NCBI GenBank assembly: GCA_030432295.1
Contig: JAUIHI010000002.1
Location: 1 to 64,000, forward strand
DNA length: 64,000 nucleotides
Direction of reading: 5' to 3'
Source: Anaerolineae bacterium
Lineage (GTDB): Bacteria; Chloroflexota; Anaerolineae; Caldilineales; Caldilineaceae
The notes under the pieces are model-generated. The model worked only from the letters and a program-made list of their open reading frames with translations. It was not told where the DNA came from and ran no database searches. The position numbers and the translations under genes were made by a program. Positions 32,348 to 33,932 of the stretch are shown one piece after another. The stretch's first letter is position 1, and every line of letters starts with the position of its first letter.

Positions 32348-32442
32348 GGGGCGGATTCGGATTCGATGGGATGGATGGGTGGGTGGATTGACGGCGGACG
32401 GCGGACAGCGGACCGCTGGTTGTGTCGGGTGTGCGCGGCTTA

Positions 32443-32478
32443 CAGAAGTTCGACTTTTCGGAAAAAGTCGAACTTCTG
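32443..32478. terminator. CAGAAGTTCGACTTTT hairpin
   Basis: CAGAAGTTCGACTTTT (32443-32458) and AAAAGTCGAACTTCTG (32463-32478) form a 16-bp perfect stem with a 4-nt loop. It lacks a long U-tract but the stem end is A/T-rich. It lies upstream of the methyltransferase remnant. Confidence 0.7.
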
Positions 32479-32530
32479 AATTGTAGCGGGTGGGGGCGGG
32501 GCTGTCAATCCGGGCGCGGGTGCAAGGCAA

Positions 32531-32594
32531 CCTTCCGGGAAGCGGCTGGAACTATTTTCCTGGTCGGTTGATTTTGTAGCCGCTTCCCGGAAGG
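32531..32594. repeat. TTCCCGGAAGCGGC hairpin, copy 2
   Basis: CCTTCCGGGAAGCGGCT (32531-32547) and AGCCGCTTCCCGGAAGG (32578-32594), 17 bp perfect, 30-nt loop. Same arm sequence as 22578-22641 with an unrelated loop. Confidence 0.8.
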
Positions 32595-32632
32595 ACAGCG
32601 ATGGAAGATTCACCCAACCTACAGAAGGGGCT

Positions 32633-32661
32633 TTGCGTGCAAGGCCAAAAACGGATACACT
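32633..32661 (+). promoter_or_regulatory. probable promoter of the toxin-antitoxin operon
   Basis: TTGCGT (32633-32638) and TACACT (32656-32661) with a 17-nt spacer, about 40 nt upstream of the antitoxin ATG. Confidence 0.5.
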
Positions 32662-32701
32662 AATCGAAAGGATTGTCACGGTTCAAGAAAGCGAGGAAAC
32701 A

Positions 32702-33181
32702 ATGGGCACAGTACCGGAGATCGAACAGGCAGTTACCCGATTATCAAAGCAAGACTTGGCCCGCTTCCGGGAGTGGTTTGAAGAATTCGACGCCCAACTG
32801 TGGGACAAGCAAATTGAGTCCGATGCCAAATCTGGCAAATTCGACAGAACGGTGGCAGAGAGCATCGCCGATTCTCGCGCTGGCTACACGACAACCTCCA
32901 CACCGAATCCGGTCGCGGCCACACACCCGCAAAAAGAAGGGGCGTCATCTGTGTCATCTACGGCCATTGCGACAATGACCAAAATGATGGAGTCCCTGCC
33001 TGAACCCGCGCAGGAGCAGATGGTTGAACATTTGCGTGACTATCTGGAAGAGCTACAGGACGAGCTACAGTGGGATATTCTCTTCAAGAAAACACAGCCG
33101 CAACTGATAGCCGCCGCGCGCCGCGCCAAAGAGGAAATGGCGCAAGGGTTGGCCAAGCCGATGGATTATGACCGATTATGA
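32702..33181 (+). CDS. antitoxin, apparent fusion of two antitoxin domains
   Basis: 159 aa; the ATG has GAGGAAA upstream. Residues 1-62 (VTRLSKQDLARFREWFEEFD, AQLWDKQIESDAKSGKFD) match the short addiction-module antitoxins usually paired with ParE/RelE-type toxins. After a Thr/Pro/Ser linker (63-85), residues 86-159 (MMESLPEPAQEQMVEHLRDY, LQDELQWDILFKKTQPQLI, AARRAKEEMAQ...KPMDYDRL) match a different family of small antitoxins, which normally precede the toxin type encoded next. The stop codon overlaps the toxin start (ATGA). A fusion or a frameless merger of two genes is inferred. Confidence 0.78.
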   Translation: MGTVPEIEQAVTRLSKQDLARFREWFEEFDAQLWDKQIESDAKSGKFDRTVAESIADSRAGYTTTSTPNPVAATHPQKEGASSVSSTAIATMTKMMESLPEPAQEQMVEHLRDYLEELQDELQWDILFKKTQPQLIAAARRAKEEMAQGLAKPMDYDRL

Positions 33182-33441
33182 AGTCGGAAACACTGCCTTC
33201 ATTCTGGTCCGCCTACGAACGGTTAGATGCAACTATCCGACGCAGCGCCAGAAAGGCATATCGCCTCTGGGCAGAAAATCCCTATCACCCTTCTTTGCAT
33301 TTTAAGTGTATCAATCGCGAAGAAAGCATTTGGTCAGCAAGAGTAACCCATGGCTATCGTGCCATTGGCATTTTTGAAGGCGATACTGTCACGTGGTTTT
33401 GGATTGGCAAGCACGATGCGTATGAGCGATTTTTCGGGTGA
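33178..33441 (+). CDS. RelE/HigB-like toxin
   Basis: 87 aa, the size of RelE/ParE-fold toxins, with the typical central motif NPYHPSLHFKCINREESIW, SARVTHGYRAIGIFEGD and C-terminal TWFWIGKHDAYERFF. Probably a ribosome-dependent or free mRNA endonuclease blocking translation, held inactive by the upstream antitoxin. Its ATG overlaps the antitoxin stop by 4 nt, so translation is coupled. Confidence 0.85.
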   Translation: MKSETLPSFWSAYERLDATIRRSARKAYRLWAENPYHPSLHFKCINREESIWSARVTHGYRAIGIFEGDTVTWFWIGKHDAYERFFG

Positions 33442-33543
33442 AGTAAACGCAAACGCCAGATCGCTACGTGCAGATGCCGGAAGTCGCCTACGCTTGAAGC
33501 ACAGAAGGTGTTTTCGACTGTGAAATACGCAAAGGAGGCCCCA

Positions 33544-33807
33544 GTGCCGACAGCAACACCGAATCTCTCCCTTCCTTTCTATGAGCAGGTGCTGGACTTT
33601 CTGGCCCAAAGCCCATCGGCCCAAGAGTTGGTCGATTTCCGCCCAACTCCCGCAGCCCAGGCGCGCTTCAGCGAACTGTTGGAGCTAAACAGGGAACGGG
33701 TGCTGTCCACGCAGGAAGAAGAGGAGTTGGATCGTTACGTACGGATGGAACGGTTGATTTCACTCTTGAAGGCCAAAGCATTTCGCCATATCGGAAATTC
33801 TCACTGA
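33544..33807 (+). CDS. small acidic helical protein, possible orphan partner of an HNH nuclease or toxin
   Basis: 87 aa from a GTG with an ideal AAAGGAGG 5 nt upstream; a longer frame from 33508 lacks such a site. The sequence is helical (FYEQVLDFLAQSPSAQEL, STQEEEELDRYVRMERLI, SLLKAKAFRHIGN). In my recollection such proteins usually precede an HNH endonuclease gene in cyanobacteria and Chloroflexota; none follows here. It lies 100 nt after the toxin gene. Function not established. Confidence 0.6.
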   Translation: MPTATPNLSLPFYEQVLDFLAQSPSAQELVDFRPTPAAQARFSELLELNRERVLSTQEEEELDRYVRMERLISLLKAKAFRHIGNSH

Positions 33808-33830
33808 TGCCACCGCTCGCGGCATCAGTG
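33802..33830 (+). terminator. hairpin overlapping the stop codon of the small orphan gene
   Basis: CACTGATGCC (33802-33811) and GGCATCAGTG (33821-33830) form a 10-bp perfect stem with a 9-nt loop. The TGA stop lies in the left arm. No U-tract follows. Confidence 0.6.
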
Positions 33831-33854
33831 CGTAAAGCAGTGGTTAAACGGGCT

Positions 33855-33874
33855 CAGCAAGCAGCGCCCCTACG
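33855..33874. repeat. 20-bp dispersed repeat, copy 1
   Basis: CAGCAAGCAGCGCCCCTACG occurs exactly here and at 36636-36655, in two different gaps. It belongs with the CCCCTAC-ended family seen at 16974 and 28386. Confidence 0.7.
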
Positions 33875-33932
33875 GAATTTCTGACGATACGACCCAATCA
33901 CCTAATCACCCAATACCCCAGGCAACCACCCA

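Follow-up and report, generated by a model that had tools for sequence, protein, structure and literature searches.

A predicted antitoxin–antitoxin fusion upstream of a ParE_like toxin gene in two species of Caldilineaceae

We analyzed a 64,000-nt stretch of DNA (hereafter, "the window") from the genome of an Anaerolineae bacterium of the family Caldilineaceae (contig JAUIHI010000002.1, positions 1–64,000; genome designated "G000"). On its forward strand, an ORF of 159 amino acids that combines two antitoxin-like domains immediately precedes a putative toxin gene of the ParE_like family. A second copy is present in the genome of the Caldilineaceae MAG CHL15 ("G310"), which belongs to the same genus. 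Below, "N-class" (approximately 65 aa) and "C-class" (76 aa) denote two groups of standalone antitoxins that were defined in this analysis. The features of the locus, with the evidence for each in parentheses, are as follows:

32693–32697, + strand: Shine–Dalgarno (SD)-like GAGGA of the fused antitoxin, in the inherited N-class start region (sequence, DNA homology, and anti-SD duplex)
32702–33181, + strand: fused antitoxin ORF, with an ATG start, 159 aa, comprising two antitoxin domains and a 21-residue linker
32702–32887, + strand: N-half, residues 1–62, corresponding to an N-class antitoxin minus its last few residues (alignment with 17 standalone N-class proteins; dN/dS)
32888–32950, + strand: linker, residues 63–83 (dN/dS; leader comparison)
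32936–32942, + strand: internal SD-like GAAGGGG, 8 nt before codon 84 (duplex energy)
32951–32953, + strand: GTG (Val84), the putative former C-class start codon, with ATG at this codon in G310 (alignment with the starts of standalone C-class genes)
32951–33181, + strand: C-half, residues 84–159 plus the stop codon, corresponding to a complete C-class antitoxin (alignment with 27 standalone C-class proteins; dN/dS)
33178–33441, + strand: ParE_like (PF24732) toxin, 87 aa, overlapping the antitoxin ORF by ATGA (Pfam; toxin tree; dN/dS)

Sequence matching showed that residues 1–62 resemble the standalone N-class antitoxins and residues 84–159 the standalone C-class antitoxins. In the class-wide sample, the single-half matches were strong (for example, 67% identity over residues 3–63 and 79% over residues 77–159), and a chance likeness of the halves to standalone antitoxins was therefore dismissed. 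The N-half of the window copy retains all six invariant N-class residues (L14, W25, W34, D35, D41, and G61), and in the G310 copy the invariant D41 is replaced by N. In both copies, the terminal K-x-x-L motif of the free N-class proteins is gone and the linker occupies its place. The C-half matches the C-class over its full length, including the P-M-D-x-x-L tail, and a toxin of the C-class clade lies next to it. At the 5′ end of the gene, the GAGGA motif forms an anti-SD duplex of −7.8 kcal/mol, and the DNA homology between the fused gene and an orphan N-class gene of G312, a genome of the same genus, starts at position 32686, upstream of the ATG. On these sequence comparisons, the gene is a true antitoxin–antitoxin fusion.

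The downstream ORF scored 33.0 bits against the PF24732 ParE_like profile (gathering cut-off, 24.4), and the closest PDB sequences were YoeB and RelE3, with weak scores (E 0.4–0.9). Judging from its family and its operon, the ORF at 33178–33441 would encode a toxin. The fused antitoxin and this toxin are separate ORFs with a 4-nt overlap rather than one toxin–antitoxin polypeptide. In a maximum-likelihood tree of 55 toxins, the partners of the N-class antitoxins split from the rest at 100/99, and the partners of the C-class antitoxins formed one clade (100/99) together with the partners of the two fused antitoxins, which were nested inside it. The antitoxin-class labels changed 4 times on this tree, versus 27.4 times when they were shuffled. 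The toxin clades follow the class labels, and the toxin lineage therefore tracks the antitoxin class. The original observation that only a toxin matching the C-terminal domain follows the fused gene was borne out by this position inside the C-class clade.

Standalone N-class antitoxins of approximately 65 aa are followed by toxins of about 83–94 aa (L005–L009, L010, and many other loci), and standalone C-class antitoxins of 76 aa by toxins of about 87 aa (L004 and L010–L038); PF24732-type toxins adjoin standalone members of both classes in many genomes. Neither the fused antitoxin nor its halves matched a curated family in Pfam or NCBIfam (the NCBIfam scan gave nothing meaningful), neither half matched the DUF2281 (PF10047) profile, and the proteins of the window had no match in PADLOC. 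A PDB sequence search found no relative of either antitoxin class, and in a PDB fold search, the C-half had no match and the N-half no significant one. No ParD/RHH domain was detected in the antitoxin by Pfam, NCBIfam, or PDB searches, and the models contain no strand. The two halves are therefore not parts of one annotated family with members of the same length elsewhere: no curated family covers either half, and the full-length form was found in one other species only.

The two classes nevertheless resemble each other. When their profiles were aligned with hhalign, the score over 56 columns was 25.9, whereas the 200 column-shuffled controls did not exceed 18.6 and the reversed profile scored 10.9; the probability of 54% and the identity of 13% correspond to remote homology. 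The halves were modelled separately, the N-half as a monomer. Helices were predicted at residues 4–12, 16–44, and 46–59 of the N-half (pLDDT 87) and at residues 4–14 and 18–64 of the C-half (pLDDT 86), each followed by a low-confidence tail, so that both models show a short helix, an LP/LS turn, a long helix, and a tail. A joint alignment of both classes was dropped for structure prediction because the N-class proteins landed on the C-half. Since the class profiles are alike beyond chance and share the same predicted layout, what had been proposed as a fusion of domains from two different toxin–antitoxin (TA) families stands as a fusion of two antitoxin domains, but the two families are more aptly described as divergent classes within a single antitoxin group, both serving ParE_like toxins. 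The N-class and the C-class, both of them common and uncurated groups of antitoxins that accompany PF24732 toxins, are probably distantly related.

Because the fused protein was recovered over its whole length, at 81% identity, in G310, a second species of the same genus, a sequencing error was dismissed (locus L003 comes from G310 and is identical to the locus in that genome). One or both antitoxin classes were found in 72 of the 298 genomes of the class-wide sample, where the fused form occurred in the window genome only, and among the 46 genomes of the family sample it occurred only in G000 and G310. The phylum sample contained no further fused forms, the viral contigs searched contained no relative, and the plasmids searched yielded two weak N-half matches and no fused form. 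A longer partial match in G470 (residues 43–159) proved on checking to be an ordinary standalone C-class pair.

In both G000 and G310, the fused module lies at the same site, upstream of a sulfatase-like gene. In related genomes, this site is nearly empty, at only about 270 bp (G311), or is occupied by a pair ending in a PIN-like ORF (G313) or by a HicAB-like pair (G312), the latter two assignments being read from sequence. The corresponding region of the window (32351–33892) appears as a TA docking site, in which the small TA pairs differ between related species; in G310, the docking site holds the fused module plus a BrnT-like pair. Just downstream of the module in the window, a 99-aa ORF (33508–33807) has no Pfam match and no evident toxin partner; it resembles a small orphan gene of the TA type. 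Upstream, the window contains a perfect 16-bp inverted repeat with a 4-nt loop (32443–32478; CAGAAGTTCGACTTTT) and a palindrome (32531–32594; CCTTCCGGGAAGCGGCT-30 nt-AGCCGCTTCCCGGAAGG) that is a dispersed repeat, the arms of which gave 73 genome matches at up to 2 mismatches versus 2 for the reversed control. The palindrome was rejected as a TA operator because it is repeated genome-wide.

Selection was estimated by comparing the window copy with the G310 copy (dS 0.5–0.9 outside the linker). The dN/dS was 0.04 for the C-half, 0.11 for the toxin, and 0.16 for the N-half (bootstrap 0.05–0.38; 95% interval below 0.4), and about 1.7 for the linker. In the two halves, dS was 0.7–0.9, and the reading frame is intact in both species. 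The N-half has accumulated more amino-acid change than the C-half (Fisher p = 0.001). Three standalone N-class pairs at usable divergence gave dN/dS values of 0.03, 0.13, and 0.20. These values point to purifying selection on both halves and to a relaxed linker, and the fusion is probably a conserved, functional working variant of a common TA module.

The first part of the linker is Thr/Pro-rich, and its last part shows a weak similarity to the leaders found 5′ of C-class genes (summed p 0.0085 and 0.02), from which we infer that the last part is the old C-class leader. Comparison of the linker with the 3′ ends of N-class TA loci gave no match (p 0.65 and 0.95), and the 5′ part of the linker resembled nothing tested; a remnant of an N-class toxin was rejected as the source of the first part, the alignment being no better than shuffles. 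The internal SD before codon 84 forms a duplex of −7.7 kcal/mol in the window and −8.2 kcal/mol in G310, on a par with standalone C-class genes, the SD duplexes of which range from −5.4 to −12.6 kcal/mol (mean −8.7). Of 1126 in-frame internal ATG/GTG codons in the long ORFs of the window, approximately 4% score as well as codon 84. Both the internal SD and the start codon are kept in the two fused copies, and synonymous changes are rarer in the linker (2/17 sites, versus 44/92 in the rest of the gene; p = 0.007, with small site numbers), consistent with retention of the signal. The gene may thus yield both the 159-aa protein and a short C-class antitoxin.

Several other composite antitoxins were observed in these genomes. 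In G097, an N-class antitoxin is fused to DUF2283 (44.6 bits; L062:1456–1875). On contig C12 of G312, an N-class head is joined to a CopG_antitoxin piece (50.8 bits) and a tail of the form RQATLxAIxxGKYA...EERR (L079:817–1272), and a related orphan on C26 of G000 joins an N-class head to the same type of tail (L044:1588–1941). In all three cases, no ParE_like toxin lies downstream, and that of G097 has no adjacent toxin. A chimeric antitoxin of G305 (L064:1489–1878) combines a head weakly matching DUF2281 with an N-class tail, and the tree places its toxin among the N-class toxins; this pairing suggests that the choice of toxin depends on the C-terminal part of the antitoxin. Antitoxins before other PF24732 toxins of these genomes also matched DUF2281 weakly (21 bits, below the cut-off). 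In G309, an XisI domain (PF08869, 127.8 bits) is fused to an antitoxin-like tail directly before a ParE_like toxin (L087:947–1450), and a locus of G310 looks like the same arrangement (L090:1746–2333). Among four open-access papers containing both terms, none presented XisI as an antitoxin in its title or abstract. Judged by these sequences, antitoxin concatenation is recurrent in the family, and the window and G310 are the only case found in which N-class and C-class antitoxins are joined with a toxin retained.

We consider it probable that the gene encodes a bipartite antitoxin derived from an A1-T1-A2-T2 arrangement by the loss of T1. Two neighboring antitoxin–toxin operons would have stood in this order, and the loss of T1 together with the end of A1 would have left A1 and A2 in one reading frame with T2 behind. 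The C-half (A2) would still neutralize the linked ParE_like toxin, its long helix and disordered C-terminal tail probably wrapping around the toxin, the translation of which would be coupled to that of the antitoxin through the ATGA overlap. The N-half (A1) would still be a folded, selected domain that most likely provides a second, homologous surface for antitoxin action or assembly, through oligomerization or by binding the same ParE_like toxin or a related one. It may also cross-protect against newly arriving N-class modules. Codon 84 (GTG/ATG) and its ribosome site would probably still yield some free 76-aa C-class antitoxin.

Related genomes offer parallels to the steps of this route. In G131, an N-class pair and a C-class pair lie about 1.3 kb apart on one strand, in an array within about 2 kb, with a middle pair that looks like BrnT and a CopG-type antitoxin; thus, both classes do share arrays. 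In G312, the N-class antitoxin is an orphan without a toxin, and the frame of a C-class antitoxin continues directly into the final residues of its deleted toxin; small deletions thus remove toxins in this lineage. Counting against the proposed route, directly adjacent N-class and C-class pairs were not found in any genome examined. N-type toxin binding may also be gone, because the N-half lacks K-x-x-L and the G310 copy lacks D41. The remote homology of the two halves, the first part of the linker without a traceable origin, and an internal start that ranks just in the top 4% weigh in the same direction.

Other roles for the N-half have to be weighed against this explanation. Binding to a second, unlinked toxin, as originally suggested, found no support in the genome: G000 has just two PF24732 toxins, the second of which (on C3) pairs with an antitoxin weakly matching DUF2281, and no N-class-type toxin was found there. 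Because the sole other PF24732 toxin has a different antitoxin and an N-class-type toxin is missing, cross-talk within the same genome is unlikely, barring an interaction across classes between the N-half and the C3 toxin. Two candidate roles are left for the N-half, which sequence does not separate: it may form an additional surface of the same complex, for toxin holding or for assembly, or it may protect against N-class modules met elsewhere. The latter would make the protein a bivalent immunity (anti-addiction) antitoxin, neutralizing N-class-type ParE_like toxins carried by mobile DNA or by other strains; a single protein would then deal with two subfamilies of toxin. Such a threat exists, because the genus and family often carry N-class TA pairs. 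Although deprived of its own toxin, the N-half shows the constraint of live N-class antitoxins, and toxinless N-class antitoxins are also present in G312 and on C26 of G000. Nevertheless, both fused copies have lost the N-class C-terminal tail, the G310 copy has lost an invariant residue, and the genome itself has no detected N-class-type toxin, and we regard this role as unlikely. More speculative, and less likely again, is the broader idea that one gene gives a bivalent protein against two ParE_like subfamilies, one linked and one foreign, plus a short antitoxin from the retained internal start, which would represent a natural route of stacking immunity domains on toxin loss.

A role in dimerization or stability only, possibly with operator binding as a larger complex and with no toxin binding of its own, is possible, although we doubt it. 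It accords with the predicted short helix plus long helix of the N-half, with the loss of its tail, with its weaker constraint relative to the C-half, and with related antitoxins in the genus that place other N-terminal domains, such as XisI, before a similar tail. However, the structure was predicted as a monomer only, and the N-half matched neither a known DNA-binding fold nor a PDB entry. The models consist solely of a short and a long helix joined by a turn, with a flexible tail, and do not support the original suggestion that the N-terminal domain supplies DNA binding. Finally, the N-half might be a recombination scar, the decaying remnant of a second TA locus carried by chance and without a role. 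The gene did arise by rearrangement, plausibly between neighboring TA loci, and toxin loss and merged orphan antitoxins occur in related genomes, so this part of the original alternative is retained. The decay is not: the frame is intact in two species at the dS given above, and the dN/dS of the N-half falls in the range of live, free-standing N-class antitoxins, which makes a scar very improbable.

The bipartite antitoxin may capture an intermediate of TA evolution, in which a toxin was lost from a tandem array and the freed antitoxin was kept as a second domain instead of decaying. If the N-half still neutralizes N-class toxins, one gene would combine an addiction module with protection against related modules, which is testable with a few small proteins. 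In the open-access literature searched, we found no paper naming PF24732 and no report of an antitoxin–antitoxin fusion of this kind. The module shares the toxin family, the antitoxin-first order, the ATGA overlap, and the toxin length of about 84–90 aa with the uncurated two-gene PF24732 modules, which have a single antitoxin of 65–76 aa (standalone N- or C-class) instead of the double antitoxin described here. In classical ParDE systems, ParD is a ribbon-helix-helix protein, whereas the fused antitoxin has no ParD/RHH domain. A DUF2281 antitoxin has been validated with VapC (PMC12654330), and some antitoxins with a weak match to this family precede PF24732 toxins, whereas the halves of the fused protein do not match DUF2281. 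Mono-gene modules in which toxin and antitoxin are fused likewise represent gene fusion within a type II TA operon, but they join toxin to antitoxin, and the ParE-like family in the published examples is PF15781 rather than PF24732; here, antitoxin is joined to antitoxin and the toxin is separate. The retention of an antitoxin domain in the absence of its own toxin recalls anti-addiction and orphan antitoxins (reviewed in PMC7354431), but here the domain is part of another antitoxin that still has its toxin, and the protective role is putative. The hyperpromiscuous Panacea/PanA antitoxins (PMC8832971, PMC10440598) likewise reflect the recombination of antitoxin and toxin modules over time and the swapping of partners at the domain level; in Panacea, one domain is combined with many toxin folds, whereas here two related antitoxin domains are combined with one toxin family.
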